Below, piece after piece: positions 44,572 through 64,000 of a DNA stretch of 64,000 nt. Source of the stretch: Pseudaquabacterium terrae (GTDB lineage: Bacteria > Pseudomonadota > Gammaproteobacteria > Burkholderiales > Burkholderiaceae_C); contig NZ_JABRWJ010000003.1 in assembly GCF_013266755.1 (NCBI RefSeq), positions 1 to 64,000 on the forward strand. The letters are read 5' to 3'. Made by a program: the position numbers and the translations under genes. Below the pieces are notes generated by a model. It had not been told where the DNA came from. It searched no databases and saw only the letters and a program-made list of their open reading frames with translations. Position 1 is the stretch's first letter. Every line of letters begins with the position of its first letter.

Positions 44572-46743
44572 ATGCGTTTGCGCCCGCTCACCCTCGTGAT
44601 GTGCGCCCTGCTCGCCGCGCTGCCCGCGCAGGCCAAGGACCCCGCCGCGCTGATCGACCACGGCACGCAGCTGCGCCGCAGCGGCGATCTGCAGCGCGCC
44701 AGCGAGCACCTGCGCGAGGCCCACGCCCGCGCGGCAGAGCCGGCACTGAAGGCGCGCGCCGCGGCCGCGCTCGGCCTCACGCTGTACCAGATGCGCCGCA
44801 CCAAGGAAGCCGAGCCGCTGCTGCGCGAGGCCTACGAGCGCGCCGGCACCCCGGCCGAACGCGCGCCACTGGCCAACGACCTCGGCAACGTGATGCTCGG
44901 CCTGCGCCACGACGACGAGGCGCGCCGCCTCTACCTCGAAGCCCAGCGGCTGGCGCCGGGCGACGCCTCGCTGCAACTGAGCACCGCCTTGAACCTGGCC
45001 CGCCTCACGGCGCCCGGCGCGCGCGGTGACGCCTTGCGCGCGGCCGCCACGCGGCTGCCCACGATCGCCGATGCGCGCGAGCGTGCCGGCTATGCCGCGA
45101 ACCTCGGCATGCAGGCACTCGGCCTCGGCGCCGCGGGCAAGCCGCTGGCGTACGAGTCGCTCGCACTCGCCCGCGCGCTGGCCGCCGGCCTGGCCGATGC
45201 GCGCCTCGAAGCCGAAGCGCTCGACGGCCTCGGCCAGCTCTACGAAGCGGAGCGGCGCATCGACGATGCGTTGCGCCTGACCGACGATGCCGTGTCACGC
45301 GCCCAGGCGGCCAACGCGCGCGACCTGTTGTTCCGCCTGGAATGGCGGCGCGGCCGCCTCTTCAAGGCCGCGGGCGACACCGATCGCGCCGTCGCCGCCT
45401 ATCGCCGCGCCGTCGAGCACATCGAGGCGGTGCGGCAGGACATCCCGATCGAGTACGAGGACGGCCGCTCGTCGTTCCGCGAGACGCTGGAGCCGATCTA
45501 CCTGGGCCTCGCCGAGCTGCTGCTCGCCAAGGCCGATGCCGCGGCCGGCGCGGCGGCACAGCAATACGCCCGCGAGGCGCGCAACGTGGTCGAGCTGGTC
45601 AAGCGCAGCGAGCTCGACGACTTCCTCGGCGAGCGCTGCACGGTGGAATCGGCGCGCTCGCTCGACGCCGGCGTGCTGCCCAAGGGCACGGCAGTGGTCT
45701 ATCCGATCATCTTCGCCGAGCGGCTGGAGATGCTGGTCGAGACGGCCGACGGGCTGCAGCGCCGCTCGCAGGCGATCGATGCCGACGACCTGCAGAAGCT
45801 GGTGCTGGGCTTTGCCGACAGCCTGCGCCGCCAGCGCCCCTACGAAGCCGCGGCCGGCGTGTTGTACGACCGACTGCTGCGCCCGCTGGATGCCCTGTTG
45901 GCGGAGCAGCAGATCGACACGCTGGTGATCGTGCCCGACGGCGTGCTGCGGCTGCTGCCCTATGGCGCGCTGCACGATGGCCAGCGCTTCGCGATCGAGA
46001 AGTACGCGGTGGTCACCGCGCCGGCACTGAGCCTGACGCGTGCCGCGCGCAACCGCCAGGCGAATCCGCGTTTGCTGCTCGCCGGCCTGTCCGAACCCGG
46101 CCCGGTGGTCGACCAGCTGCCGCGCTGGGTCCTGGAAGCCCTGGGCGGCACGGCCACCCGCACGCTGACGCGCCAGGAAACCCGCGAGGCGCTGGCGCTG
46201 CCCGGTGTGAAGCAGGAAATCGATAGCCTGCGCCAGCGCCTGCCGAGCGACGTGCTGCTCGACCAGGCCTTCACGCTGGCGCAGTTCGAGCAGCGCTTCG
46301 CGACCGGCGACTATTCACTCGTGCACATCGCCTCGCATGGCGTCTTCAGCAGCTCGGCCGCCGAGAGCTTCCTGCTGACCTACGACGGCCTGCTGACGAT
46401 CGACGGCCTGCAGCGCCTGCTGCGCTCCGAGAAGCTGCGCCGGCAACCGATCGACCTGCTCGCGCTGTCGGCCTGCCAGACCGCCGAGGGCGACGACCGC
46501 GCGCCGCTGGGGCTGTCGGGCGCGGCGCTGAAGGCGCGCGCCGGCAGCGCGCTCGGCACGCTGTGGCCGGTGTCCGACGCCGCGGCGATGCAGCTGATGT
46601 CGCGCTTCTATGCCCGCCTCGGCGAGCCGCAGATCAGCAAGGCCAAGGCCTTGCAGCAGGTGCAGCGATCGCTGATCGCCGAACCCGCGTTCAATCATCC
46701 GTTCCACTGGGGCGCCTTCATCCTCGTCGGGAGCTGGTTATGA
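44572..46743 (+). CDS. secreted TPR-CHAT protease
   Basis: 723 residues with a signal peptide ending PAQAK (about 21). Residues 25-345 contain TPR-like helical repeats. Residues 390-723 are a CHAT (caspase-like) domain with both catalytic residues: His589 in LVHIASHG and Cys635 in LSACQT. The last three bases overlap the tpsA start (ATGA). Lying between a TpsB transporter and its TpsA partner, it is well placed to cleave or regulate the exoprotein in the periplasm. CHAT proteases elsewhere serve as effectors or maturation enzymes; the role here is inferred. Confidence 0.92.
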   Translation: MRLRPLTLVMCALLAALPAQAKDPAALIDHGTQLRRSGDLQRASEHLREAHARAAEPALKARAAAALGLTLYQMRRTKEAEPLLREAYERAGTPAERAPLANDLGNVMLGLRHDDEARRLYLEAQRLAPGDASLQLSTALNLARLTAPGARGDALRAAATRLPTIADARERAGYAANLGMQALGLGAAGKPLAYESLALARALAAGLADARLEAEALDGLGQLYEAERRIDDALRLTDDAVSRAQAANARDLLFRLEWRRGRLFKAAGDTDRAVAAYRRAVEHIEAVRQDIPIEYEDGRSSFRETLEPIYLGLAELLLAKADAAAGAAAQQYAREARNVVELVKRSELDDFLGERCTVESARSLDAGVLPKGTAVVYPIIFAERLEMLVETADGLQRRSQAIDADDLQKLVLGFADSLRRQRPYEAAAGVLYDRLLRPLDALLAEQQIDTLVIVPDGVLRLLPYGALHDGQRFAIEKYAVVTAPALSLTRAARNRQANPRLLLAGLSEPGPVVDQLPRWVLEALGGTATRTLTRQETREALALPGVKQEIDSLRQRLPSDVLLDQAFTLAQFEQRFATGDYSLVHIASHGVFSSSAAESFLLTYDGLLTIDGLQRLLRSEKLRRQPIDLLALSACQTAEGDDRAPLGLSGAALKARAGSALGTLWPVSDAAAMQLMSRFYARLGEPQISKAKALQQVQRSLIAEPAFNHPFHWGAFILVGSWL

Positions 46744-49667
46744 GTGCTCGATCCGAGCGCCGCGGCCGCGTCACTGCGGCGTTGGCGGCGATGCTGTTCG
46801 CCGCGCTGCCCGGCGGCGCCGAGGCCGGCGCGCTGACGGACGGCAGCTGGGGCCGCACGCCGCAGGCCTTCAGCGGCCAGTTCACGATTCCCGAGAGCGT
46901 GGGCCGGCGCGCCGGCAGCAACCTCTTCCACAGCTTCCAGCGCTTCGGCATCGAGGCCGGTGAATCGGCGACCTTCACGACCGCCACGCCCGCGCTGAAC
47001 AACGTGATCGCGCGGGTCAGCGGCAGCGAGCCGTCGGGCCTGTACGGCACGCTGCGGCTGTCGGCGGCCTCCGGGAGCCGGCCGAACTTCTACCTGATCA
47101 ATCCGAACGGCGTGACCGTCGGGCCGGGCGCGCGCATCGACGTGCCCGCCGCCTTCCACTTGAGCACCGCCCACGAGCTGCGTTTCGCCGATGGCACGGT
47201 GTTCGGCGCCGGGCGGGGACCCGACAGCACGCTGACGGTGGCCGCGCCCGCGGCGTTCGGATTCCTGGGCGCCGCCGCCGCGGGCGCGGTGCGCCTGCTG
47301 CCGGGCGCGCGGGTGAATGCTTTCCTCGACGACCGCGACATCGACATCACCGCCGGATCGATCGAGTTGGACCGCGCCGCCATCCACACCGAAACCGGCG
47401 TGCTGCGGCTGCTCGCCGCCGGCGCTGAAGGCGCAGCGATACCGGTCGATCCGCGCCAGGCGGCGCCCGAGCGCAGCCTCGGCGGCAGCATCACGCTGCT
47501 GGGCTCGTTCGCCAGCACGGCAGAGGGCCGCGTCGCCGTGCAGGCCGGCACGCTCGAGCTTCAATTCGCAGCGATCACTGCGATCCCCGTGCTGCAGGCC
47601 GCCGGCGCGGTCGACGTGCTGGTGCGCGACGCGCTGCGCCTGCAGGACTCGCGCATCGCTTCGCACATGGCCTTCGACAGCGCGGCCGCGGGGCCGCCGG
47701 TGCGCGTGCGCAGCCTGGGCTCGATTGCCATCGGTGGCGAGGTCGGCGGCATCCTGACGACGACCTCGTCGGCAGCGCCGGCCGGCGACATCAGCGTCAG
47801 CGCCGCGTCGATGAGCGTGAGCGGCCAGACCGCCATCGCCAGCTTCACCCAGGCCCTCGGCAACGCCGGCAACATCGCCGTCGACGTCCAGGGGCCGCTG
47901 CGGATGACAGACAGCGGCGGCGTGTTCTCGCAGGCCCTGGCCGGCGTCGATGCGCCGGACCTGACGCGCTTCGGCGCCTCCGGATCGGTGCAGGTGAAGG
48001 CCGGCGCGCTGACGCTGGACGGCACCGGCGCGACCCTGCCGCCCAGCATTTCCAGCGACTCCACCTTCGTCGCGACACCGGCCGGCGCGGTGACCGTGCT
48101 CGTCGACGGGCCGCTCGTGCTGCGCGGCGGCGGCAACATCACCAGCTCGGCCACCGCCCATCCGGGGTTCGCGCCGATCGCCACGCAGCGGGCGGGCTCG
48201 GTGTCGGTCAAGGCGCAATCGATCCTGATCGACACCGCGAGTGACGACGCTTTCCCCTCCGGGATCTACAGCGACTCGCTGGGATCGATGGAGCCCGGTT
48301 CACTGGCGCACGGCCCGGGCGGACCGGCGGGTCGGGTGCAAGTGGAAGCGCGCGACATCACGATCCTCGGCGGTGGGCCCGCCGGCATCTCCGCCAACAC
48401 CTCGGGCCCCGGCGCGGGCGGCACCGTCTCGGTCACCGCCGAACGGATGCTGCTCGACGGGCGCGAGCAATGGCCGGCGTCGATCTCCAGCACGACGCTG
48501 GGCGCCGGCGACGGCGGGGTCGTGACGGTGCAGGTCGCGGAGCGCCTGACGATGGTTCGCGGCGGCCTGATCCAGGCGCTGTCGGCCGGAACCGGCCGCG
48601 GCGGCGCGATCACGGTCGAGGCCAGGACCCTCCTGATCGAGGGCAGCGGCCCGCAAGGCCTGACGACCGGCATCCTCGGCACCTCCGTCGGCCCGGGCGC
48701 GGCGGGCGACATCACGGTCCGGCGCGCGGAGCAGGTCTCGCTGCTGCGCGGCGGCGTGATCAGTGCCAACGCCCATGCCGAAGGCCGTTCGGGCGCGATC
48801 CGCATCGAGACGCGCGATTTGTTGATCGACGGCCAGGGTGATCCGCTGACCGGCATCCGCAGCCGCGCGACAGCCACCTCCACCGGCAAGGTCGGGCAGA
48901 TCGTGGTGGCCGCCAGCGGCGCGGTGCTGCTGACCGACGCGCCTCAGGCGATGACGATCAAGAACGAATCGCTGGAACCGGACCTGACCGCCTTGACGCC
49001 GCAATCGATCAGCGTCAGCGCGCAGCGCCTGCAGATGGACGGTGCGAGCCTGATCGCCTCGTCCAGTGGCAGCGCCCCCGGCAATGCCATCGACGTGCAG
49101 GTGCGCGAGGACATGATCATGCGCAACGACGCGCGCATCCTCACATCCGCGCAGAACGGCAACGGCGGGCCGATCAGCGTCTCGGCGCAGCGCTATCTGC
49201 TGATACGCGACGCGCAGATCGAGAGCTCGGTGCTCGGCGCCTTCAACGGCAATGGCGGCAACATCCGCGTCAGCACGCCCGTGCTGGTGCTGGACAACGG
49301 CTCGATCCAGGCCAATACCGCCGCACCGCGCGCCAGTGGCGGCGACATTCGCATCGAGGTTCAGGCGCTGCTGTCCAGCGGCAGCGCGCTGCGCGTCGGC
49401 GGCACGGAACTGATTCCGTTCGATCCGCGCGGCGCGGGCAGCAACGTGATCCAGGCCGCGGCGCCGGAAGGCCTGTCCGGCAACATCCAGATCGCCAGCC
49501 CCGCGCTCGACCTGGCCGGCAGCCTGAAGACGCTGGACGCCCAGGTGCTCGATGTCGGCCTGATCGGGCGCGACATGTGCGGCATCGGCTACGGCAGCTC
49601 GCTGGTGCGCGCCGGCCGCGGCGGCTTGCCGGGCTCTATCTCCGATGCGGTGCGGCCGGCGCGCTGA
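46740..49667 (+). CDS. filamentous haemagglutinin-type exoprotein TpsA
   Basis: 975 residues from ATG 46740, overlapping the CHAT stop. Signal peptide 1-30 (GGAEAG). Residues 35-260 are the TPS secretion domain: FTIPESVGRRAGSNLFHSF, GLYGTLRL, NFYLINPNGVTVGPGARIDV, and FHLSTAHELRFADG. The rest is a right-handed beta-helix rich in Gly, Ala, Ser and Thr, and the end DMCGIGYGSSLVRAGRGGLPG is the conserved tail seen in the cyanobacterial-type TpsA group. Only one cysteine is obvious (in that tail). It is predicted to be surface-exposed or released, possibly adhesive. Confidence 0.92.
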   Translation: MSARSERRGRVTAALAAMLFAALPGGAEAGALTDGSWGRTPQAFSGQFTIPESVGRRAGSNLFHSFQRFGIEAGESATFTTATPALNNVIARVSGSEPSGLYGTLRLSAASGSRPNFYLINPNGVTVGPGARIDVPAAFHLSTAHELRFADGTVFGAGRGPDSTLTVAAPAAFGFLGAAAAGAVRLLPGARVNAFLDDRDIDITAGSIELDRAAIHTETGVLRLLAAGAEGAAIPVDPRQAAPERSLGGSITLLGSFASTAEGRVAVQAGTLELQFAAITAIPVLQAAGAVDVLVRDALRLQDSRIASHMAFDSAAAGPPVRVRSLGSIAIGGEVGGILTTTSSAAPAGDISVSAASMSVSGQTAIASFTQALGNAGNIAVDVQGPLRMTDSGGVFSQALAGVDAPDLTRFGASGSVQVKAGALTLDGTGATLPPSISSDSTFVATPAGAVTVLVDGPLVLRGGGNITSSATAHPGFAPIATQRAGSVSVKAQSILIDTASDDAFPSGIYSDSLGSMEPGSLAHGPGGPAGRVQVEARDITILGGGPAGISANTSGPGAGGTVSVTAERMLLDGREQWPASISSTTLGAGDGGVVTVQVAERLTMVRGGLIQALSAGTGRGGAITVEARTLLIEGSGPQGLTTGILGTSVGPGAAGDITVRRAEQVSLLRGGVISANAHAEGRSGAIRIETRDLLIDGQGDPLTGIRSRATATSTGKVGQIVVAASGAVLLTDAPQAMTIKNESLEPDLTALTPQSISVSAQRLQMDGASLIASSSGSAPGNAIDVQVREDMIMRNDARILTSAQNGNGGPISVSAQRYLLIRDAQIESSVLGAFNGNGGNIRVSTPVLVLDNGSIQANTAAPRASGGDIRIEVQALLSSGSALRVGGTELIPFDPRGAGSNVIQAAAPEGLSGNIQIASPALDLAGSLKTLDAQVLDVGLIGRDMCGIGYGSSLVRAGRGGLPGSISDAVRPAR

Positions 49668-50300: not shown

Positions 50301-50379
50301 CCCGATCTCCCCAGAACCGACGTAACGGACGACGGGCATTGGGTTGCGGCGGGGCGCGATCCGGTTCAATCTTCCGCCC

Positions 50380-51639
50380 ATGTTCGCCTTGCGCATCCTC
50401 CGCCGGCCCGACAGCGCTCCCGGCGGGGTGGATCTGATCGCGGTCGGCCCGGCCGGCGCGACGATCGGCCGCGCGCAGAACTGCGAGGTCGTGCTGGAAG
50501 ATCCACTGCGGCTGGTTTCACGCCACCACGCGTGGATCGCCGCGGAAGCGCACGGCCAGGCGCTGCTGCGCTGCCTCAGCACGATCTCGCCGATGACGGT
50601 GAACGAGGAGCGGCTGATGCCGAACCACGAGCGGCTGGTGCGCCCCGGCGACCGGCTGCGGATCGGCGGCTTCGAGCTGGCGGTCGAGTGGGTGGGCATG
50701 CCGACGCTGGTGCCGCACAACGATCCGCTGGCGACGACGGTCGCCGCCGTTCCGAATCCCGGTCCGGTGCCGTACGCGCCGCCCGCGCCACCCGCGCCGC
50801 CGCCGGCGCGCCTGGACCGCTGGTTCGACCTGGAAACCGTGCCCGACCCGCTCGGCCCCGAGTCGCCGCTGCCGGCGCTGCGCGATCCCTCGCTGCCACC
50901 CGGCGCGGCGGGGCGCCCCGGGCCACAGCAGGACGCGGTCTGGCCGCCGACGCTGCTGATGCAGCGCCCACCTCCGGAGAGCCTCGCGGCGGAGGCGGCC
51001 GCTGCCGCGAGCGCCGACTACCAGGCGCTGCGGCAGGCCTTCCTGCACGGCGCCGGGCTGGACCCGGCGACGCCGTTCACGCTCGATGCCGTGACCCTCG
51101 CGCACCTCGGCGCGCTGCTGCGCGCCTCGACCGAAGGCACGCTGGAGCTGCTGCGCGCCCGCGCGCTGACCAAGCGCAACCTGCGTGCCAAGGGCACCGG
51201 CGTCACGGCACGCGAGAACAACCTGCTGAAGTTCGCGCCCGACGTCGGCGAGGCGCTGAAGCTGCTGCTCGAGCCCGCCGGCCGGCCGGGCTTCCTCGGC
51301 CCGGTGGAAGCCGTGCGCGCGGCCAACCACGACCTGCAGGTGCACCAGCTGGCGATGGCCGCGGGCATGCGGGCGGCCATGCTCGACCTGATCACGCAGC
51401 TCGGCCCGGCCGCGATCGAAGCCTCCGCCGATCCGCCGCAGGGCGCCGCCCGCGTGATGCCCGCGCTGCGCGAGGCGCAGCTGTGGCAGCGCCTGCAGCA
51501 GGCGCACGCGCGCCTGGTCGAGCACCTGGACGACACCTTCGACAGCGCGTTCGGGCGCGAATTCGTGCGGGCGTACGAGGCGTTTGCGGCGCAGGCGGGC
51601 GGCGAGCCGCCGGCGGAGGGGGAGTCGGCGCGGCACTAG
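50380..51639 (+). CDS. tagH: type VI secretion FHA-domain protein TagH
   Basis: 419 residues from ATG 50380. Residues 25-115 form an FHA domain (GRAQNCEVVLEDPLRLVSRHHAWI), followed by a proline-rich linker (120-190). The C-terminal 230 residues are the TagH/ImpI domain: LHGAGLDPATPFTL, LGALLRASTEGTLELLRARAL, NNLLKFAPDVGEAL. TagH acts with the PpkA kinase and PppA phosphatase to switch on type VI assembly, and TagF at 56934 is its usual antagonist. It is convergent with the RTX protein gene. Confidence 0.92.
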   Translation: MFALRILRRPDSAPGGVDLIAVGPAGATIGRAQNCEVVLEDPLRLVSRHHAWIAAEAHGQALLRCLSTISPMTVNEERLMPNHERLVRPGDRLRIGGFELAVEWVGMPTLVPHNDPLATTVAAVPNPGPVPYAPPAPPAPPPARLDRWFDLETVPDPLGPESPLPALRDPSLPPGAAGRPGPQQDAVWPPTLLMQRPPPESLAAEAAAAASADYQALRQAFLHGAGLDPATPFTLDAVTLAHLGALLRASTEGTLELLRARALTKRNLRAKGTGVTARENNLLKFAPDVGEALKLLLEPAGRPGFLGPVEAVRAANHDLQVHQLAMAAGMRAAMLDLITQLGPAAIEASADPPQGAARVMPALREAQLWQRLQQAHARLVEHLDDTFDSAFGREFVRAYEAFAAQAGGEPPAEGESARH

Positions 51640-51671: not shown

Positions 51672-54600
51672 TCAGAACAATCCGCCCGCGCCAGATCCCG
51701 CCGAATCCCAAGCCAGGATCCCGACCAATCCAACGGCTCCAGCGCCAGCGGGCTGCACCTGAACATCCGACAGCACCGTGCCGTCGGCAAACTTGAATTG
51801 CTCGACACGATGCGCGCTGCCGAGGTACCAGTCCTTGATCAATAGCGTGTCGGTGGTGCCATTGATCGTTGCCTGCAAGTCGTTGCCGACGCGAGAGAAG
51901 GCGATGTCGCTCGTTGCGATGTTGGCGCCGAAGAGCACCGAATCGACGATGCCGGCGGTGGCATCGTTCTCCTGGACGGTGTCGACCTGGTTCCCGCGCT
52001 GGAAGGCATACGTGTCGGCGCCGGTACCGCCCGCCAAAGTGTCGTTGCCGGCCGCGCCGTCCAGCGTGTCATTGCCCGCCCCACCGCTCAGGACGTTCGC
52101 CGCGACGTTGCCCAGCAATGTGTTGTTCAACGCATTGCCGGTGCCATTCACCAGGCTCGAACCGATCAGGGTGAGGTTCTCGAGGTGATTTCCGAGCGTC
52201 CAGGCAACGGCCGATAGAACGACATCGATTCCTTCGTCGGCGTTCTCCGTTACCACGTCAGTCGCCACATTAACGACAAAGGTGTCGTCGCCAGTGCCAC
52301 CCAGCATCGTGTCGTTGCCTGCAGCTCCGTCGAGCATGTCATTGCCGGAACCACCATTGAGCGTGTTGTTTCCACTGTTGCCCGTCAACATGTTGTCGAG
52401 CGCATTGCCAGTGCCATTGATCACCGACGTGCCGGTCAAGGTCAGGCGCTCGACGTGGTTCGCGAGCGTCCACGTGATGGCCGATTGCACGAGGTCGATT
52501 CCTTCGTCGGCAACTTCGACCGTCGTGTCGGCTGCGTTGTCGACGACGTAGATATCGTCACCCGTGCCGCCCGTCATCGCGTCGGCCCCGGTCCCGCCGT
52601 TGAGCGTGTTGGCGCCGGCATTGCCCCGGAGCACATTGTTCAGCGTATTGCCGGTGCCGTTGAGCGGCGCACTTCCCGTCAGCGTCAGGTTCTCGACGTT
52701 CGTCGCGAGCGTCAGCGTGACGCTGGACTCGATCGTGTCGTTGCCCGCGCTCGCCGCCTCGGTCACGACGTCGGCGCTGATGTCGACGATGTAGGTGTCG
52801 TTGCCGGCCCCGCCGATCATCGTATCGTTGCCTGCACCGCCGTTGAGCACGTTGTCGCCTGCATTGCCGGTCAGCTTGTTTGCGAGTCCATTGCCCGTGC
52901 CGTTGACCGCCGCCGTGCCGGTCAGGGTCAGGTTCTCGAGCTCGGCGCCGAGCGTCCAGCCGAGGCTTGTCGTGACGAGGTCGACACCGCCACCGGCCGC
53001 TTCGATGATCGAGTCGCCTGACGCATCGACGACGTAGCTGTCGTTGCCTGTCCCGCCACTGAGCACATCGTTGCCGGTGCCGCCATCCAGCACGTTGGCG
53101 CCACCGTTGCCGGTGATCGTGTTGTCGAGCGCATTGCCCGTGCCATTGGATGACCGAACGGTGTCCGTACCGGCGCTGCTGCCCTCGATGGCCTGGTCGG
53201 CCGTGGCGTCGATGACGTACGCGTCGTTGCCTGCTCCGCCCGTCATGCGATCGTTGCCGCTACCTCCATCCAGCGTGTCCGCGGCCGCGGACCCATTGAG
53301 CGTGTCGTTGCCGGCCAAGCCCCGCACAAGTCCGCCGTTGGCAGACGCTTGAAGAACGTCGTCGCCCTCGGTGCCGAGCACCCCAGCGATGGCAGACTGG
53401 ATCGCCGCCAGATTCCATACCGTAGCGTCAGCGAACTCGAACTTCAGGCCTGTCGGATCCCAACCGCCGTGAAAGCCGTCCAGCGTCGCCGTCGAGGCAG
53501 TCGCGGAGTGCTCGATGCGCAAATTGGGGCCCACGGTCCACAAGGTGAGGTCCGTCGGCGCAATGCCGGTTCCGAAACGCAAGGTGTCGCCGCCGACGAG
53601 CCAGAAGTACGCATCCTGACCCCAGCCGGGGGACAGCAGAATCAGCTCCGGGTCCGAGGTGGCGTTGACGACATCGTTGCCCGGGCCTGCATCGACGGTA
53701 TCGCCGCCGCCTTCGACGTAGATCGTGTCGTCGCCGATACCGCCGCGGACCACATCGGCGCCCGGGCCATCGCGCAACTCATCGTTGCCGGCGCCACCAT
53801 CGACAACGTCGTCGTCTCCGTCGCCGAACAGCCGGTCGTTGCCGGCGCTTCCGGACAGGGTGTCGTTGCCGGCACCGCCACGCACCAGATCGTCGCCGCC
53901 CAGCGCATCGATCACGTCCGGACCGGCTGTGCCGAGCAGCTCGTCCGGACCTTCGGACGCGGCAGTCGACACCCGGCTTGCCACGTCGTCGTAGGTCCAG
54001 ACGGTGCCGTCCATGAAGCGCACGCCCGTCAGCGGCCGCTGCGACGAAGTGAACTCTTCCACCAGCACGCTGTTCTCGGTGCCGGACACGGCCAGGCGGA
54101 TGACGCCGCCTGGGATGGCACTGACCTGGATATTGGCCGGCGTGACGCCGGTGCCAAATTCGATGACGGCGTTCCTTGCGGCGACGCGGTCGCTCGAAAA
54201 CTTGATGGCGTCGTTGCCAAAGTCACCTTCGAAGCGGTAGACGACATGACCATTGCCGGCATACAGCTCGTCGTTGCCGGCGCCGCCAATCAGGATGTCG
54301 GAGTCGCCCCCGGAGCTGATGCCGTTCTGGGTGGACGACGAACCGCCCACGGCGTAGAGCTTGTCGTTGCCGTCGCCACCGAGCAGTGTGTCGGACCCGG
54401 CAAGGCCGCAGATTTCGTCGTCACCCGCGCCACCTGTCACTCAACGCCGTCTCGAACCTCGAGCCTGAACGAAGCGTCACCGAACATGTGATCCCCGCCG
54501 TCGCCACCGAACAGGATGTCGTCGCCTCCATCGCCGTCGACGAGATCGTCGCCATCGCCACCATCGATGACGTCGTTGCCGTGGTCCGCCGAAAACACGA

Positions 54601-55824
54601 AGTTATCGGCGATGGGCGGGTCCGCGTAGGTGTACTGCTCCGGCGAAAGGAACAGGAGACTGAGGTAGTTGTCGCCCGAGAGTTCGTCGTTTCCAGCACC
54701 CCCTGGGCCGTGGCGTCAAGCTGCAGCTGCTGGGAACTGCTTGCCGTCGTCGTGGGCGACCAGTTCTTAACGATGATCGAGTTGCCCTTGTTGGCGCCCG
54801 AGAAGGTGATGACGAGCGTGTCGCTGGTGCCTTCCCGGATCAACTGGTACCGCACGCTTCCGTCATCGCTCTTCCAGACGCCGCCAAGCCCCGGCGCCTT
54901 CCGGCCGATGGGTAGGCCTCCTTGAAACCCGGCGACCTCGAACTGGCCAACACCATCCCCGTCGCGAACCGTGTCGACACCCCATCCAGTGGAGAACACG
55001 TACGTGTCGGCGCCGTTCCCGCCGTCGAGGAAGTCATTCCCCTTCCCGCCATCGATGCGATTCGCACCGCTTCCACCGAAGACGTAGTCGTCGCCTTCTC
55101 CAGCCTCGACGTTCCCGTTTGCGGAAACAATGAAGTCGGCGCCTTTGTGCACATTACCGGCGTTGTCGGTCGTCTGGCCGGTACCCCGGACCGTGCCACC
55201 ACCGCTGAAGTCGTAGATCAGCGTGTCTGCAAGGATCTGCCCACCCACGAACTCCTTCTCCCACACCTTCACGCCGGCAAGTGCCGCCTGCTGTCTCGGC
55301 GCGGGGTCGTCCTTGGCGATTCCGCCAGGGGAAAGATTGGCCGTGAAGATGTCCGTGAGCTGCGTAACACCCGCACGATTCATGCACTCGGCAACGAATC
55401 CCACGCAGTTGAATACGATCTTCCCGGGTAGCGTGATCAGTGCGCCGGGCGCGGCATAGTATCTGAGCGTCGTCTGGTCGAAAGGCTTGCTGGCATCCGC
55501 GGCGTCGATCGCATTGAGTTGCGTGACGTAGGCGCGCAGAGCAGCAACCTGGGCTTCGCTCACGGATATTCGTTTCTCGAACGTCCACTCATGGTCACTT
55601 TGATCCATGGAGACATGGCCGCCGACCGGAAGTACATCGCCGGCTCCCTTTGTCCCATCCGGCATCCAGCCGAACACCTCGGTGTTGCCGCTCGGGTCCG
55701 TGATGGTGACCATCGCGTGCCCGAAGTTCCGGAGAATGACCGGACTCTGGCCATTCAGGAGATTGTCGAAGTCGAACTCGACTTTGCTGTCTTCGACCCG
55801 GATTCCAATGTACCAATCTGCCAC
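51672..55824 (-). pseudogene. large RTX protein with papain-like N-terminus (candidate T6SS effector), two frameshifts
   Basis: Adding one base to the C5 run at 54699-54703 and one near 54441 restores a single frame of about 1,384 residues. The GTG start at 55824 has AAGGTGA before it. Residues 1-210: His36 in FGHAMVTITDPSG and Cys140 in FNCVGFVAECMNRAG, the order of a circularly permuted NlpC/P60-type cysteine hydrolase. About 1,100 residues of calcium-binding RTX nonapeptides follow (GGxGxDxLx; more than ten arrays) with units containing [17 protein letters not shown]. There is no signal peptide. It follows a secreted small protein gene by one base and lies in a type VI locus. Export by type I secretion is the alternative. 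Confidence 0.7.
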
Positions 55825-56933: not shown

Positions 56934-57557
56934 TTACCCCAACATGCGCAGCAGCAGTCCGTCCGACGGCGGCCAGGATTCGGCGATCGGCTGCCGCACA
57001 TCGGGCACCGGCTCGGTGGGCCACCAGAACGACGCCGCGCCAGGACAACTGCGGCGCAGGTCGGCCACGCGGTCGACTACCACGCCAGCGCCGCCCGGCG
57101 CCTCGGTGACCTGCGGCCAGTCACTCCCCGCCCACGCCGCGGCCCCCTGCTCGAACTCCTCCACCGACTCGAAACGGGCCGCATCCCACAACCAGTCGCT
57201 CAATCCCAGCATGCGGGCCTGCAGCCGCACCAGCGGCACGGCGTCCAATGCGGCCCGCGGCACCCCCTCCGCCAATAGCAGCGGAAAGACGCGGCCGACG
57301 CGGTCTCGCGAGCCGGCGACGATGCCGCACCAGCCCATACCCTGACCGTCCGCCGGCAGCAGCAGGCCCTGCCAGGGCGCCATGCCGCGAACGCAGTTGC
57401 GCAGCGCGGCGCTGCCGAGCGTGGCCTCGGCCGCCGGCAGGCCGCGCTGCAGCCACTCGTCCCACAGGCGCTGCCACGGCAGGCCCTGGCCGACGAAGTC
57501 GCCGACCCAGGGCAGCTTGCCGTACCAGCCGATCGAGCGCGTCAGCACGTCGTGCAT
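56934..57557 (-). CDS. tagF: type VI secretion-associated protein TagF
   Basis: 207 residues. Matches the TagF/DUF2094 family: GWYGKLPWVGDFVGQGLPWQRLWDEWLQRGL, WQGLLLPADGQGMGWCGIVAGSRDRVGRVFPLLL, DWLWDAARF. TagF represses type VI firing after translation, opposing the TagH pathway. It begins six bases after the tssM stop, so it is in the tssL-tssM-tagF direction. Confidence 0.94.
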   Translation of the reverse strand: MHDVLTRSIGWYGKLPWVGDFVGQGLPWQRLWDEWLQRGLPAAEATLGSAALRNCVRGMAPWQGLLLPADGQGMGWCGIVAGSRDRVGRVFPLLLAEGVPRAALDAVPLVRLQARMLGLSDWLWDAARFESVEEFEQGAAAWAGSDWPQVTEAPGGAGVVVDRVADLRRSCPGAASFWWPTEPVPDVRQPIAESWPPSDGLLLRMLG

Positions 57558-57563
57558 GTCACC

Positions 57564-60500
57564 TCACCAGGGTTCGGGGCAGCGGAAGCGGCCCAGCTCG
57601 CCGAGCAGCGCGGCGCTCGCCGGCCCACCCGCCCCGGCTTCGGCCTGGACGTCGAGCTGCAGGGCGCGGCCGTCGACCTCGATCCGCGCGAGCACCGTGC
57701 GCGCCGCGCCGCCACGCGTCAGCCCGTGGCGCTGCAGCACGCGCAGCAGCGCCCAGGGGCCTTCGTGCACTTCGGCGCCGATGCCGTTCGGTCCGGCCGG
57801 CAGGATGCGCAGCACCACCTTCTGCGTCGCCGCCGGCCCCGGCCACTGCAGCGCCTTCGGCCGGCGCGGGCCGTTCTCGTAACGCAGCAACTGGCCGTCG
57901 ACGTCGAGGCTGAACAGCAGCAGCTCCGGATCCATCGCCTGCGGCGTCAGCTCGAGCCGCAGCTGCGGCAGGCCGCGCCCGCCGGGGAAGAACAGGCGCC
58001 GGATGTCCTCGGCACTCTCGAAAGCGCGCAGCGCGGCGACCGCCTGCGGCGGCGCATCCGCATCGTCGAGCAGGCGCCAGGGCCGTTGCCGGCTGTCGAT
58101 GCGCGGCGCGATGTGCTGGCGAAAGACGCTGTCGAACAGGCCCTGCGGGCCGAACAGGCGCGCGAAGTCGGCATACGGCAGGTCGCGCGTCGCGCCGGCG
58201 GCGAACGGGAAGCGCTCGGCCGTCAGGCGGCGGCAGGCCTGCGCCAGCTCGGCCAGGCTGCCGCCGAGGCGGCGCTCCAGCGCACGTTTCTGCGCGGCGG
58301 CCAGCGCCTCGGCCAGCGCGAGCCACATCGCGCGCACCGGCGGCGGCGCCGCGGCGCTCTCGGCGCGCAGCTCGCGCACCAGCTCGCCGGCGCGTGCGCC
58401 GGCCGGATCCTGCAGCGCGGCGGCCAGCGGCACCAGCAGGCGGTCGAGCGCACCGGCCGCGGCACCGCCCGTCGCGCGGTCGGCCACCGCCTTGGCGGCA
58501 TAGTCACGCAAACCTTCAAAATGAGCGGCCAGCGTCGCATCGCGCGCCTGCGCGGCGGGCGATACAGACGCCCCCCCAATCTCCGGCACCGCGAACTCGG
58601 CGGCCACGCGGCGCAGCAGCTGGCGCAGCGCGGAGTCCGGTGCCGCCAGCTCGGTGGCGAAACGCGCCAGCGCCTCGGTGTCGGCCGGCGCCTGCAGCGC
58701 CAGCGTGCCGAGCAGGCGGTCCCAGGCGGCGATCGTCGCCTGCGCGTGCCGTTGGCCGACGCCGCGCGCCACCGGCACGCGTGTCTCGCGATCGGTCAGC
58801 AGGCGCCGCAGCGCCGGCGAGCGCTCGCCGAGCACCCATTCAGCCTCGTCGGCCATCTCGGCGATCGTCGGCTCCACCGCCGGCTCGATCACGCTGCGCC
58901 AGGCCTCGCGCGTCAGCGGCGCGGCAATCGCCGGCGGTGCCACGGCCGCATCGGCGGGCGCGAAGGCCAGCACCGCCGCCGGGCCGGCCAGCTCGGCCAG
59001 CGCCTGCGCGCCGCCCAGGCGCTCGCGCGCGCGGCGCAGCAGCCGGTCGTGCACGCGCTGCTCCAGCGGAACGGCGGACAGCGCGGTGCGTGCGGCCTGC
59101 AGCGTGGTTTCGTCGAGCCGCATCGCCTCGAGCACGGCGTTGCGTTCGAGCAGTGCATCGAAATGACGCAGCCACTCTTCCTGCTCGCCCGCGCCGGGGG
59201 CGACGGTGGCCGCACCCGGCGCGGCATAGGCATGCGCCGCCCAGCGCTGCACCTCGCCGCGCTGCAGGCGGCCCGGCGTCACCAGCATCAGCGCCACGCG
59301 CAGCGCCTCGTAGCGCGTGGCGGCATCCTGCTCCTGGCGCACCGCCTGCGTCAGCCGCTCGACGACCAGCGGCGCGAAACTGCGGTCCAGCACGCGGTGG
59401 TAGGTCTGGTCGGCCGAGCGGGCCAGCCGCGGGCCTTGGAACAGGCCGAAGCCGAGGCCCCAGGGCACATCGTCAGGACTGTCGGGGTCGACCGAGCCGC
59501 TCGACGCCAGCTGGTGCAGCAGCGCATACAGCGGCAGCAGCCGGTCGATGCGCCCGTCCCGCGCCGGCCCGACTTCCTGCGTCACGCGCTGCACGCGCTC
59601 GCGCACCGCGGCCACGTACTCGCTGTTCTGGCGGTAGCTGTGCAGCCACGCGACGCAGGCCAGCAGCATCAGCAGCGCCGCGGTGGCGCCGGCGGTCGCC
59701 TCCAGCCAGCGCCGGCGCCGCCGCCGCGCGAGGCTGAAGCCGGCCAGCGGCGCCTCGGCGATCACCAGCCGCGTCAGCCAGCCGGCGAGGAAGAAGGCCT
59801 TGCCGCGGCCGGGCTCGACTTCGCGCGGCGTCAGTCCGAAACCGTAGCTGCGGCTCAAGTCGCCGATCACGCGGTCGATCGGGTTGCCTTCCTGCGTGCC
59901 GCTGCTGAAGTGGATGCCGCGCAGCGGCTGCGCCGGCGCATCGGCGGCGTGGCGGAAGGCGCGCCGCGCGAAGCCGTCCAGCGCCGGCAGCAGGGCTTCG
60001 ATCTGCGCCGGGAAATGGAAGATCGCCGAGCGCCGCTCCGGCAGCGGCTCGGCCTGCAGGCGTTGCGGCACCGCGGCGGCCAGGCGCGCCGGCAGCTCGG
60101 CCAGCCGCACGGCCAGGTCGTCCGGCACGTCCGCGCCGCGGTCGCCGAGCTCGCAGGTGATGCCCCAGGGCTGCTCGCGCTGCGCCGGGTCGAAGTCGCC
60201 GAAGCTCTCGATGAAGCCGGCGAGCAGGTCGGCCTTGGTCACCAGCAGGTAGACCGGGAAGCTCAGGCCCAGCTGCGTGCGCAGCTCCTGCAGCCGGCGA
60301 TCGACCGCCGCCGCCTGGTGCGCCAGCTCCGCGCCGCCCTGCAGCAGGTCGGGCGCGCTGACGGTGACGATCACGCCGTTGATCGGCTGCACCGCGCGGT
60401 GGCGCCGCAGCAGCTGCAGGAACAGCCGCCACTCCGACGCATCCTGGTCGCCGCGGCTGTCCTGCGTCGTGTAGCGGCCGGCGGTGTCGATGAACACCGC

Positions 60501-61070
60501 CTGGTCGGTGAACCACCAGTCGCACTGCCGCGTGCCGCCGATGCCGGCGACCGGCGCGGCCCCGAGCCGCTCCGCCAGCGGAAAGCGCAACCCGGCGTTC
60601 AACAAGGCCGTGGTCTTGCCCGCACCGGGCGCGCCGATGAACAGGTACCACGGCAGTTGGTACACCTGCCGCCGCCGCTGCCACCAGTGCGCCGGCGCGC
60701 CGCCCCCGCGCGCGCCGAGGCCCGCGCGCAACAGCTGCATCGCACTGGCGAAGCGCTGCGTCAGAGCCTGCGACGCGTCATCGCTCGCCTGCAGCTGTGC
60801 GAACAGCTGCGCATTGCGCCGCTGCCGCAGCCAGCGCCGCACCAGCCCAGCCAGCACCAGCGCGCCGGCCAGGGCCAGCAAGAGCGCGAGCCGCGCGCCG
60901 CGCCCGTCGAACGGATGGCGCCCGCCGATCGACAGCAGCGGCGCCGACAGCCAGATGAGCAGCGCCGCCCCGGCAACATTCGCCAGGCCCTGCAGCCGCG
61001 CCTTGGTCGCGCCGTCCGCAGCGTTGCGCGCGGGCTCGGCGGCGGCTTGGCGCTCGGGATGTGCGGTCAC
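57564..61070 (-). CDS. tssM: type VI secretion membrane subunit TssM (IcmF)
   Basis: 1,168 residues from GTG 61070. Two N-terminal membrane helices (about 35-80), then a cytoplasmic NTPase-like domain with Walker A GAPGAGKT (146-153) and FIDTAGRY (193-200), a third helix near 455-475 and a long periplasmic part with conserved IcmF blocks. It forms the trans-envelope core complex with TssL and TssJ. Walker A is intact, so this is the nucleotide-binding variant. Repeat element B separates it from tssL. Confidence 0.95.
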   Translation of the reverse strand: MTAHPERQAAAEPARNAADGATKARLQGLANVAGAALLIWLSAPLLSIGGRHPFDGRGARLALLLALAGALVLAGLVRRWLRQRRNAQLFAQLQASDDASQALTQRFASAMQLLRAGLGARGGGAPAHWWQRRRQVYQLPWYLFIGAPGAGKTTALLNAGLRFPLAERLGAAPVAGIGGTRQCDWWFTDQAVFIDTAGRYTTQDSRGDQDASEWRLFLQLLRRHRAVQPINGVIVTVSAPDLLQGGAELAHQAAAVDRRLQELRTQLGLSFPVYLLVTKADLLAGFIESFGDFDPAQREQPWGITCELGDRGADVPDDLAVRLAELPARLAAAVPQRLQAEPLPERRSAIFHFPAQIEALLPALDGFARRAFRHAADAPAQPLRGIHFSSGTQEGNPIDRVIGDLSRSYGFGLTPREVEPGRGKAFFLAGWLTRLVIAEAPLAGFSLARRRRRRWLEATAGATAALLMLLACVAWLHSYRQNSEYVAAVRERVQRVTQEVGPARDGRIDRLLPLYALLHQLASSGSVDPDSPDDVPWGLGFGLFQGPRLARSADQTYHRVLDRSFAPLVVERLTQAVRQEQDAATRYEALRVALMLVTPGRLQRGEVQRWAAHAYAAPGAATVAPGAGEQEEWLRHFDALLERNAVLEAMRLDETTLQAARTALSAVPLEQRVHDRLLRRARERLGGAQALAELAGPAAVLAFAPADAAVAPPAIAAPLTREAWRSVIEPAVEPTIAEMADEAEWVLGERSPALRRLLTDRETRVPVARGVGQRHAQATIAAWDRLLGTLALQAPADTEALARFATELAAPDSALRQLLRRVAAEFAVPEIGGASVSPAAQARDATLAAHFEGLRDYAAKAVADRATGGAAAGALDRLLVPLAAALQDPAGARAGELVRELRAESAAAPPPVRAMWLALAEALAAAQKRALERRLGGSLAELAQACRRLTAERFPFAAGATRDLPYADFARLFGPQGLFDSVFRQHIAPRIDSRQRPWRLLDDADAPPQAVAALRAFESAEDIRRLFFPGGRGLPQLRLELTPQAMDPELLLFSLDVDGQLLRYENGPRRPKALQWPGPAATQKVVLRILPAGPNGIGAEVHEGPWALLRVLQRHGLTRGGAARTVLARIEVDGRALQLDVQAEAGAGGPASAALLGELGRFRCPEPW

Positions 61071-61189: not shown

Positions 61190-61487
61190 GCCAAGGCCAC
61201 TGGGTGCCCGGCTCCGCTCATGTCCCCCGGGCCGGGCTGCGCTTCTATGTCTCAGGCTAGATCTCGGCCGGCCCTCCTCCTTGACTTCGCTACGCCGGGC
61301 ACCCAGCGCCCTTGGCTGTGGCGACACCGTGGCATGCGATGGCCTGCCAGGGCGCAGCGGATCAGGACGGCGGGGCGCTCTGTGGAGCGAAGTCAAGGAG
61401 GAGGGCCGGCCGGGCACCGCCCGGGGCGCATCAACGCCGCCCGGCCCGGGGGACATGAGCGGAACAGAGCGCCCCGCCGGCCTGATC
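61190..61487 (+). repeat. structured intergenic element, copy B (plus orientation)
   Basis: Lies in the 510-bp gap between tssL and tssM. Stem P1: 61190-61211 with 61295-61316. Its loop holds block X (61266-61291). Stem P2: 61360-61383 with 61464-61487. Its loop holds X' (61386-61411), a perfect 26-base complement of X. Element-flanking arms GCCCGTTGCGG (61141-61151) and CCGCAACGGGC (61523-61533) are perfect. Layout, order and spacing match copy A at 27266-27574, with compensatory differences in each stem. Confidence 0.85.
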
Positions 61488-61580
61488 GTGTGCGGTGCAG
61501 GCACGCAGCGCACGACGAACGTCCGCAACGGGCGGTGATCGGACGGTCGAGCGAGTCTCATGCCAACCACTCCATGCCGA

Positions 61581-62792
61581 TCAGGGATACAGCACGATGT
61601 CGACCCGCCGCGGCGGCAGCGCCGGCCCGGGCCCGGGGCGGTCCTGGTCGGCGGCGCCCTCGACGGCCAGGCGGTGAGCGGGCAGCGTGCGCTCCAGCGC
61701 GTTTGCGGCCTCGCGCGCCCATTCGTAGGACTGGTGCCAGGCCGAGGGCAGGCGCGCCGTGCGGCGGTCGCTGCCGTCGGTGTGGCCGATCACGACCACC
61801 TTGCCGCCGTGCGCGGCCAGCGCCGAGCCGATGCGCGCGAGCAGCGGCGCGGCCGACGACGCGAGCTGCGTGCCGCTGCCCTCGAACAACTGGCCCGCGG
61901 CGATGGACACCGTGCTGCGATGGGCCTCGTCGCGCACCGTGATGCGACCGGCGCTGACCTCGGCGGCCAGCGGCGGCGCCAGGCGCGCGGGTCCGTTTGC
62001 CGGCGTGATGGCGGCGGTGGCCGCGGTCGGCGGCGGATCGGCGGCCAGCCGCTGCATCGAAACGAATACTTCATCGACCTGCGCCGCCAGCAGCAGGTGG
62101 CTGCTGGTGTAGACGCCGAGCGTGGCCAGCGCGAGCAGCAGCAGCGCGCCCAGCGTCAGCCGGCGCCGCCACAACGGCACACCGGGCTTGACGGCAGGGT
62201 GCCACGGCGGCGACAGCGCAGTCTCATCACGCGGCAGCGTCAGAAAGACGCGGGTGCGCAACTGTTCGAGCTGGCGGGTGCCCGACGGCCCGGCCGGCAC
62301 GTGGCCGTGCAGGCCCAGGCTCAGGCAGGCGTGGAACAGCGCCAGCAGCGCGCGGTTCTCCTGCGGCCGCTCGGCCAGCCGCGACAGCAGGCGCAGCACC
62401 CGATCGCTGCCGCTGCTTTCGCCATGGAAACGCTCGAGCAATCCGGCGCCGCCCGCTCCCCATGGCGTGTCGGCAACGACCTCGTCGACCCAGGCGCACA
62501 ACAGGTAGCTGGCCGCGGACAGCCCGCGCTCGTCCCAGCCGGCGCCTGCGAGCTCGCGCTCGAATCGCTCGACCGCATCGGCCAGCGCCGGCTTCAGGCC
62601 CTCGGGCGCATCGACCACCGCGCGGCGCAGCTGGCTCGCCAGCGCGATCAACGGCCGGGCACTGTCGTGCAGCGCACGCGCCAGCCGATCGGCATCGGCC
62701 ACCTCGGGCGGCTCGAACCCGGGCGCGGGGACCGACGGCGGCGCCAACCCAGGCTCACGCCGGATCGTTGCGGCGGCGCCCATCTTGGCCAT
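61581..62792 (-). CDS. tssL: type VI secretion subunit TssL with OmpA-like domain
   Basis: 403 residues. The DotU domain lies at about 30-205 (LSAASYLLCAWVDEVVADTPWG, LLERFHGE, RPQENRALLALFHACLSLG), followed by one membrane helix near 215-235 and a periplasmic OmpA-like domain (VVVIGHTDGSDRRTARLPSA) that would bind peptidoglycan. This evolved TssL carries its own wall anchor. It sits between the caspase-TssJ gene and tssM, the usual tssJ-L-M order, with element B interrupting the spacing before tssM. Confidence 0.94.
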   Translation of the reverse strand: MAKMGAAATIRREPGLAPPSVPAPGFEPPEVADADRLARALHDSARPLIALASQLRRAVVDAPEGLKPALADAVERFERELAGAGWDERGLSAASYLLCAWVDEVVADTPWGAGGAGLLERFHGESSGSDRVLRLLSRLAERPQENRALLALFHACLSLGLHGHVPAGPSGTRQLEQLRTRVFLTLPRDETALSPPWHPAVKPGVPLWRRRLTLGALLLLALATLGVYTSSHLLLAAQVDEVFVSMQRLAADPPPTAATAAITPANGPARLAPPLAAEVSAGRITVRDEAHRSTVSIAAGQLFEGSGTQLASSAAPLLARIGSALAAHGGKVVVIGHTDGSDRRTARLPSAWHQSYEWAREAANALERTLPAHRLAVEGAADQDRPGPGPALPPRRVDIVLYP

Positions 62793-62835: not shown

Positions 62836-64000
62836 TCAACGCACCCAGGCCAGCTGGACTTGCCGCGCCTGCGCATCCAGGCGCGCCGGCGGCATCGCGT
62901 CGTCGGCGGGCAGCGGCAGCACGCTGCGCCATTGGTTGCGCTCGAGCTCGCGGTAGGCAGCGAACACGGCGACCAGGCGCGCGTCGTCGCCCAGGCTCAG
63001 CACCAGCTCGCGCGATTCGCCGGGGCGCAGGTGCAGGCTTTCGCGCTTCAGCAGCGCGCTGCCGAGCGTGGCCTCGTCGTGCTCGTACAGCGCATCGAAG
63101 CTGGCGCGCTGGAAGGCCACCGCGTCGCGCAGCAGGTACACCCGCAGCGCGAGCGAGGCCGGCGTCTGCGCGCGATCGGTGTTCAGGCTGCGTTCGGCGC
63201 GGATCGCCAGGCGCAATGTCCGGCGGCCGGCACTGGCCTCGACGACCGGCCCGCCGGGGACGGAAGCCGGCGCGCGCGGGGCCGGGCTGCGCACCGCGGC
63301 CGCGGCCAGCGCACCGGCGCCGGGGTTGAACACGAAGTTCACGACCATCGAGGTGTTGACCCACGGGATCTGCCGCTCCTGCGTGTCGCGCAACACCTTC
63401 ACGCGCACGTTCTTCAGCATCTCCTCGACCTCGATGCCCTCGCCGCGCATCTCCTGCGCGAGGTGGCGGCTGTAGATGCTGTTGCTGCCGGGCGGGCCGT
63501 CCTCGGCGGTGCGGCCCGGCGCCGCCGAGAACGCGATCAACGCGCCCGGCGCCGCCATCTCGGCCAGTCCGCTGCCGACGCGGATGCTGCGCGTGCGGCC
63601 GCTGGTGAACGGGTTGTCGCGGCAGGCGTCGATGATGAAGATGCGCGCGCGCGGCCGCACGCGGTCGATGCGCGCCAGCAGCGCGTCCTCGATGTCGATC
63701 GATTCGTCCTTGATCTCGCCTTCGTCGCGCAGGTTGAGGTCGACCGGCAGCAGGTAGTTGCGGCGGTCGATCTGCATGCCGTGGCCGGCGTAGAAGAAGA
63801 CCAGCGCGCTGTCGTCGTCGTCCATGCGGCGGCCGAAGTCGCGCAGCACGCGCTTGAACTCGCGCGCCTTCAGGTTCAGGTGCTGGTCGACCTCGAAGCC
63901 GAGCGCCTTCAGCGTGCTGCCGATCAGCCGCGCATCGTTCTCGGGATTGGCGAGCGGCGCCTGCGCGTACTGCGCGTTGCCGATCACCAGCGCGACGCGG
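62836..64000 (-). CDS. caspase-like (C14) domain fused to a TssJ-like domain (5' end beyond window)
   Basis: At least 388 residues; the reading frame enters from the right edge as RVALVIGNAQYAQ. The N-terminal part is a C14 caspase fold with both catalytic residues: His in FFYAGHGM (63781-63783) and Cys in IIDACRDNPF (63622-63624). The C-terminal 130 residues follow the TssJ pattern: LNTDRAQTPASLALRVYLLRD, AFQRASFDALYEHDEATLG, LHLRPGESRELVLSL, and VFAAYRELERNQWRSVLPLP. Gene order is tssJ-tssL-tssM and no other tssJ is in the window, so this fusion may supply it. Whether the protein keeps a lipoprotein signal cannot be seen here. Confidence 0.82.
   Translation of the reverse strand, partial: RVALVIGNAQYAQAPLANPENDARLIGSTLKALGFEVDQHLNLKAREFKRVLRDFGRRMDDDDSALVFFYAGHGMQIDRRNYLLPVDLNLRDEGEIKDESIDIEDALLARIDRVRPRARIFIIDACRDNPFTSGRTRSIRVGSGLAEMAAPGALIAFSAAPGRTAEDGPPGSNSIYSRHLAQEMRGEGIEVEEMLKNVRVKVLRDTQERQIPWVNTSMVVNFVFNPGAGALAAAAVRSPAPRAPASVPGGPVVEASAGRRTLRLAIRAERSLNTDRAQTPASLALRVYLLRDAVAFQRASFDALYEHDEATLGSALLKRESLHLRPGESRELVLSLGDDARLVAVFAAYRELERNQWRSVLPLPADDAMPPARLDAQARQVQLAWVR

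Follow-up and report, generated by a model that had tools for sequence, protein, structure and literature searches.

A rare caspase–TssJ fusion in a type VI membrane-complex locus in which no tail genes were found

We describe a gene that joins, in one open reading frame, a caspase-like protease domain and a TssJ domain, the latter being a component of the membrane complex of type VI secretion systems. Judging from sequence comparison, this caspase–TssJ fusion is real, conserved, and rare, and it sits in a type VI membrane-complex locus in which no tail genes were found. Its carriers are a few environmental bacteria. The gene was detected at the end of the window, that is, the whole stretch of 64,000 nucleotides that was analyzed, corresponding to bases 1-64,000 of contig C23 (788,610 bases) in a genome of 8.04 Mb (G000, the window genome).

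The fusion gene and its carriers

The frame of the fusion gene is open at the window end; its 5′ end, which the original prediction had placed beyond the window, was recovered from the same contig, 119 bases further. In the protein, a Tat-like signal is followed by the caspase domain, which a Pro/Ala-rich linker connects to a C-terminal TssJ domain:

62836..64000 in the window (62836-64119 in the contig), minus strand: caspase–TssJ fusion gene, 427 aa (P0001), with its ATG at 64119
63343..64000 in the window (to 64002), minus strand: caspase domain (Peptidase_C14, PF00656; Pfam 1.5e-39)
62896..63219, minus strand: TssJ domain (PF12790, T6SS-SciN; Pfam 2.2e-31) without a lipobox

The identification of the C-terminus as TssJ, originally proposed from the letters of the window, was upheld by every profile used. 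The fusion scored 108.6 bits with PF12790 (cut-off 27) and 88.1 bits (4.5e-25; cut-off 31.6) with the NCBIfam model TIGR03352 “TssJ”, and a PDB profile search, the query of which was a profile of three fusion proteins, retrieved five solved TssJ structures (3zhn, 1.7e-19; 4a1r, 2.7e-14; 3rx9, 2.1e-13; 6ixh, 3.1e-13; 6hs7, 3.5e-13). In the same search, the best solved-structure match to the caspase domain was the MALT1 paracaspase (7.6e-7). The predicted intact His/Cys pair of C14 peptidases was recovered in all five fusion proteins (motifs YAGHG and DAC); in the window, the codons of His113 and Cys166, computed from the start at 64119, occupy positions 63781-63783 and 63622-63624, respectively. 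Both Pfam families were matched in one frame, above their curated cut-offs, in each of the five proteins (the window protein being searched as a 442-aa frame with an earlier start). Since these proteins come from five separate assemblies, an assembly or frame artefact is excluded, and the anticipated fusion of a protease to TssJ is confirmed. The caspase domain shares up to 47% identity with other caspase-like proteins of the same bacterial family. The domain and the His/Cys pair are those of the bacterial orthocaspases and of Peptidase C14 in general, from which the fusion differs in its C-terminal TssJ domain and in belonging to an operon with TssL and TssM.

Five genomes carry the fusion. 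Besides the window genome, two of them were found among 150 family genomes, namely Aquabacterium humicola RJY3 (G143), of the same genus as the window genome (91% identity), and a representative of another genus (G133; 69% identity). The remaining two, Variovorax sp. JS1663 and Variovorax WDL1, were retrieved by scanning GTDB genomes with two strict peptide patterns, and their best segments share 63% identity, so that the identity over the five carrier genomes ranges from 63 to 91%. At E <=1e-60, the fusion was found in one of the 399 genomes of an order sample and in one of the 369 genomes of a class sample, in both cases the window genome itself, with the best candidates (at most four) scored per genome. 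In a phylum sample of 397 genomes, 100 TssJ matches were obtained in 76 genomes (rows summed), and a single caspase–TssJ, the window's own, was present among them; as about 350 aa is the frame length required for such a fusion, this count covers open frames longer than 330 aa. Two of the 100 matches lie in frames of this length, the window fusion and a spurious one: the 673-aa open frame of G1106:C4 was rejected as a second long TssJ because it contains an ordinary-looking lipoprotein start immediately ahead of its TssJ domain. As for plasmid carriage, 268 plasmid records matched the fusion and none covered at least 80% of it.

The original prediction knew of no described system of this form, and, in agreement with this, no description linking a caspase to TssJ or to type VI secretion was found in a full-text literature search, most subscription papers and all bioRxiv preprints being outside its scope. 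In the portions available, two papers combining metacaspases or peptidase C14 with type VI secretion (PMC9612521, PMC10328246) deal with matters unrelated to a caspase–TssJ fusion.

Both domains look to be under purifying selection between close pairs of fusion proteins. Nei-Gojobori estimates of dN/dS, which are rough on GC-rich DNA such as this, were 0.12 and 0.11 for the caspase domain and 0.23 and 0.13 for the TssJ domain in the two close pairs, and 0.26 and 0.57 (caspase) and 0.44 and 0.72 (TssJ) in the two distant ones. From the low values of the close pairs, the constraint on the protease half appears no weaker than that on the TssJ half.

The membrane-complex locus

The predicted order tssJ-tssL-tssM was confirmed at the window locus, in the extended form fusion-tssL-tssM-tagF. 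The genes surrounding the fusion are the following:

61581..62792, minus strand: TssL/DotU (PF09850, 1.1e-40)
57564..61070, minus strand: TssM/IcmF, matching TIGR03348 over its full length (model positions 5-1168 of 1168)
56934..57557, minus strand: TagF (PF09867, 7.4e-21)
50344..51639, plus strand: type VI secretion FHA protein TagH (TIGR03354, 202.7 bits, cut-off 120.25)
contig C23 ~64199-65035, just past the window end: second Tat-like caspase
contig C23 ~65043-65668 (L007:10044-10670), minus strand: anti-sigma-like protein, with a sub-threshold zinc-finger anti-sigma match
contig C23 ~65666-66259, past the window end and upstream of the fusion: ECF-type sigma factor

TssL, TssM, TagF, and the FHA protein were found by tblastn at the fusion locus of all five genomes; Pfam confirmed the FHA domain at all five loci and TagF at both loci tested (window and JS1663). 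This partner set stays with the fusion down to about 50% TssM identity. The TssL and TssM genes, next to the fusion gene, are diverged. The window TssM possesses a Walker A motif (GAPGAGKT) and, according to Pfam, an IcmF_C domain, and the C-terminus of the window TssL is weakly OmpA-like (19.9 bits, cut-off 27.2), a domain that Pfam did not detect in the TssL of three relatives. A phosphothreonine site was sought by eye in TssL and none looked conserved. In a TssM tree of 12 rows, which left out the TssM of WDL1, all four fusion-locus TssM sequences fell into one clade (100/100). A long-branch warning was issued by the tree program (the C53 TssM of the window genome and its relative meeting the fusion-locus group); therefore, only the unity of this clade is used here. 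TssM proteins of the fusion-locus type (at least 61% identity) were found in three of 399 family genomes, which are the three harboring the fusion.

No tail gene was found at any of these loci. Twenty queries (VgrG, TssA, B, C, E, F, G, H, K, Hcp, and a TssB-TssC fusion, some of them partial), taken from two conventional clusters, one in G133 and one on contig C53 of the window genome, were run by tblastn (E 1e-4) against C23:1-94000 of the window genome, 51.5 kb of G143, 81 kb of G133, and 20 kb of each Variovorax, and none of the 20 matched, leaving sheath, baseplate, Hcp, VgrG, ClpV, and TssA undetected in these stretches. As controls, all nine C53 queries matched the G133 cluster and 10 of the 11 G133 queries matched the C53 cluster (TssE was missed). 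Compared with a type VI secretion system, the fusion locus has the genes for TssJ, TssL, and TssM, and sheath, Hcp, VgrG, baseplate, and ClpV were not found there. The proposal that the protein is a type VI subunit thus stands as far as the membrane-complex genes and the type VI post-translational regulators are concerned; it does not extend to an ordinary complete locus, as neither a tail gene nor a lipobox was found.

The regulators recall the threonine phosphorylation pathway (PpkA, PppA, Fha, TagF): in addition to FHA and TagF at all five loci, a Ser/Thr kinase and a PP2C phosphatase were found by tblastn at both Variovorax loci. Here, however, these genes flank a membrane complex without a tail, and the kinase and the phosphatase have no counterpart (tblastn) in C23:1-94000 of the window genome. 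In G143, L072 gave a weak match to the kinase (26%, 2.6e-9), about 15 kb from the fusion.

The second caspase, the anti-sigma-like protein, and the sigma factor are located just upstream of the fusion in three of the five genomes (G000, G143, and G133; tblastn). The sigma factor was confirmed by Pfam in both genomes tested (window and G143), and the anti-sigma-like protein of G133 gave no Pfam match. None of the three was found by tblastn in the 20 kb of either Variovorax locus, where the second-caspase query matched the fusion itself only. The conserved C-terminal part of the anti-sigma-like protein resembles, by eye, a protease prodomain, which could link it to the caspases.

Other features were observed around the fusion. 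The interval between tssL and tssM in the window genome contains a palindromic element (window 61190-61494; about 300 bases, arms of 23-43 nt), which may disturb the operon; it is missing from G143, where only 6 bases separate the end of the TssL frame from the TssM frame. An RTX (haemolysin-type calcium-binding) protein (window 51672-55824, minus strand) is divided between two overlapping frames (54421-55824 and 51672-54440), apparently by a frameshift or sequencing error, and a two-partner secretion pair (ShlB/FhaC-type transporter and TPS secretion domain protein) is encoded on the plus strand (42952-44556 and 46563-49667). DUF4384 proteins with a lipoprotein-like start occur beside or near an OmpA-like protein at the loci of G133 (L059:4592-5974) and JS1663 (L075:3124-4731). 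The G133 locus (C1, L059:1618-3582, L069) also adjoins genes that, by eye, resemble those of a type III secretion operon, an SctV-like gene among them; a link between the fusion and type III secretion was dropped, no such genes having been noticed among those listed around the other loci.

A proposed docked protease and its alternatives

All five fusion proteins have an arginine pair preceding a hydrophobic stretch at the N-terminus (by eye; the JS1663 start was chosen within a longer frame), and in none of them was a recognisable lipobox seen by eye. In four of the five, the catalytic cysteine is the sole cysteine of the stretch read; the WDL1 protein has two extra ones towards its N-terminus, which by eye do not fit the usual lipobox pattern. 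At the other TssJ loci of the carrier genomes, a lipobox-like cysteine was found in frame in six of six cases (pattern match). In the TssJ of enteroaggregative E. coli (EAEC), Cys1 is described as the acylated residue (PMC3213119). From the lack of a recognisable lipobox, the lipid anchor of TssJ appears to have been lost in the fusions and, this anchor being a defining feature of TssJ, the fusion does not fully qualify as one. It shares with TssJ (SciN, VasD, Lip) of the type VI membrane complex the profiles, the tssL and tssM neighbors, and an L1-2 loop stretch that aligns without gaps to 3rx9 and 6ixh; it differs from that outer-membrane lipoprotein in the lipobox, in the Tat-like signal, in the position behind a caspase domain, and in the tail genes not found at its locus. 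The L1-2 loop is reported to be required for TssM binding in EAEC and to be poorly conserved among TssJ proteins generally (PMC3213119); because of the latter, its retention is weak evidence of TssM binding.

On these grounds we tentatively favor the idea that the fusion is part of a device of the cell envelope based on a type VI membrane complex, in which the TssJ domain acts as a docking handle and attaches a periplasmic protease to the TssM ring. Of the explanations considered, it is the most likely one that the fusion works like a docked protease, and the arrangement of domains and genes suggests that the protease is switched by the assembly of the envelope complex. Activation on assembly had been put forward in the original prediction and is kept here as a hypothesis; none of the observations points to the other trigger named there, an attack from a neighbour. 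The fusion would be exported folded through Tat, and its TssJ domain would bind the periplasmic C-terminal domain of the TssM encoded at the same locus. The canonical complex is reported to contain 15 TssJ and 10 TssM (PMC10433429), and PDB entries 6ixh and 6hs7 have 15 TssJ chains each. With a ring of 15 copies, assembly would bring many caspase domains close together and, by analogy, this crowding probably activates the docked protease through proximity. Proximity activates many caspases, initiator caspases and paracaspases among them. In the MALT1 paracaspase, a beta-sandwich domain placed after the caspase domain controls the protease; the fusion also has a beta-sandwich domain in that position, which is TssJ rather than Ig, in a protein that is bacterial and looks exported.

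Control of the assembly might come from the cytoplasmic side, through FHA and TagF and, in Variovorax, also through the kinase and the phosphatase. In Agrobacterium, the binding of Fha to phosphorylated TssL is reported to activate secretion (PMC3953482), and TagF is described as repressing type VI secretion through Fha (PMC5995506). In the apparent absence of the lipid anchor, TssJ would not give this complex its customary tether to the outer membrane. A possible substrate is an envelope or periplasmic protein, or the linker of the fusion itself. The predicted structure of the fusion (mean pLDDT 39.5, from an alignment of four sequences) is too poor to argue any packing of the domains.

A more elaborate form of this idea, which we regard as rather doubtful, is that a sheathless type VI-like membrane complex serves as a periplasmic protease-activation platform with a logic like that of the apoptosome or the inflammasome; cytoplasmic phospho-signalling (FHA, TagF, kinase, phosphatase) would drive the assembly of the TssM ring, which would gather the caspase–TssJ proteins and switch them on by proximity.

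It is possible, if rather unlikely, that the fusion locus provides a spare or swapped-in TssJLM set to a type VI sheath and baseplate encoded elsewhere in the same genome, the caspase being an accessory for the insertion or removal of the complex. A TssC-bearing locus exists elsewhere in all three carriers tested; in the window genome, the three TssC-like genes and two other TssM genes are all on C12 and C53. In G133, a single contig rated 100% complete, the fusion is the only TssJ match at E <=0.1. The conventional cluster of this genome comprises, by Pfam, TssK, TssA, TssB, Hcp, TssE, TssF, TssG, a ClpV-like AAA/Clp ATPase, and VgrG, together with TssC, TssL, and TssM, and has no tssJ; of the five TssM-bearing genomes among G133 and its relatives (40 genomes), the other four all have TssJ. 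The fusion may, thus, serve the conventional system in G133. Nevertheless, TssL and TssM are encoded in that cluster too, a recognisable TssJ is reported to be lacking from some type VI systems, for example in Acinetobacter (PMC6838775), and the TssJ of the fusion appears to have no lipid anchor. Moreover, the fusion is not needed in the other carriers, as further TssJ proteins over the cut-off occur in G143 (two) and in both Variovorax (one each), and the window genome has two further tssJ genes (C12:66553 and C53:323870). The latter bear out one half of a reservation in the original prediction, that a conventional tssJ might exist elsewhere with the present C-terminus unrelated to it; the other half fails, the C-terminus being TssJ-related. 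We also observed in G133 (L061:8547-10082; C1 ~1788546-1790081) one protein matching both VipA (TssB, 1.5e-11) and VipB (TssC, 4.7e-38), adjoining a DUF4123 protein; TssC-like genes of similarly low score are present in the window genome (C12:636100) and in G143 (C1:1375115).

According to another explanation, which appears distinctly unlikely, the fusion is a self-processing precursor: the caspase would cut after a basic residue at the end of the linker and free a soluble TssJ, the protease being a maturation switch only. Just before the first TssJ strand, a basic residue is found in all five proteins (GRR-T, GRR-T, GQR-S, PKR-S, and AKR-N), and orthocaspases have been described as cutting after positively charged residues (PMC6426788). 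However, ordinary TssJ proteins also show basic residues near this place (by eye), and the linker is poorly conserved and variable in length among the fusion proteins.

The genes upstream of the fusion could instead point to a cell-death or defence device, in which the caspase would be a death effector released by envelope damage, as in the bacterial gasdermin/caspase defence; we consider this improbable. In favor of it are the second caspase, the anti-sigma-like protein, and the sigma factor of three loci and a weak PADLOC caspase match (4.3e-08), but these three genes are absent from the 20 kb of either Variovorax locus, and PADLOC, run on four proteins only, gave a weak caspase match in three of them and no other family. 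Furthermore, known caspase defence acts in the cytoplasm, whereas the caspases described here look exported.

Finally, a functionless, decaying remnant of a type VI cluster from which the tail genes were lost and to which a caspase was added by gene fusion would agree with the patchy spread of the locus (four of the six same-genus genomes listed, the window genome included, have no fusion-type TssM at E <=1e-170) and with the palindromic element inside the window-genome operon, but it is highly improbable in view of the same four partner genes accompanying the fusion in all five genomes and of the low dN/dS of the close pairs.

What a caspase on a type VI complex would mean

If the docked-protease reading holds, a piece of the type VI machinery would have been separated from the syringe and would serve to position a caspase-like protease within the periplasm. 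It would offer a handle on what exported bacterial caspases do and on whether TssJLM complexes have roles besides injection; the protease-activation platform, if true, would be a case of a type VI membrane complex used otherwise than for injection. The fusion also represents a natural TssJ that apparently lacks a lipid anchor and, since it is the sole TssJ found in the complete genome of G133, it makes the need for anchoring testable.
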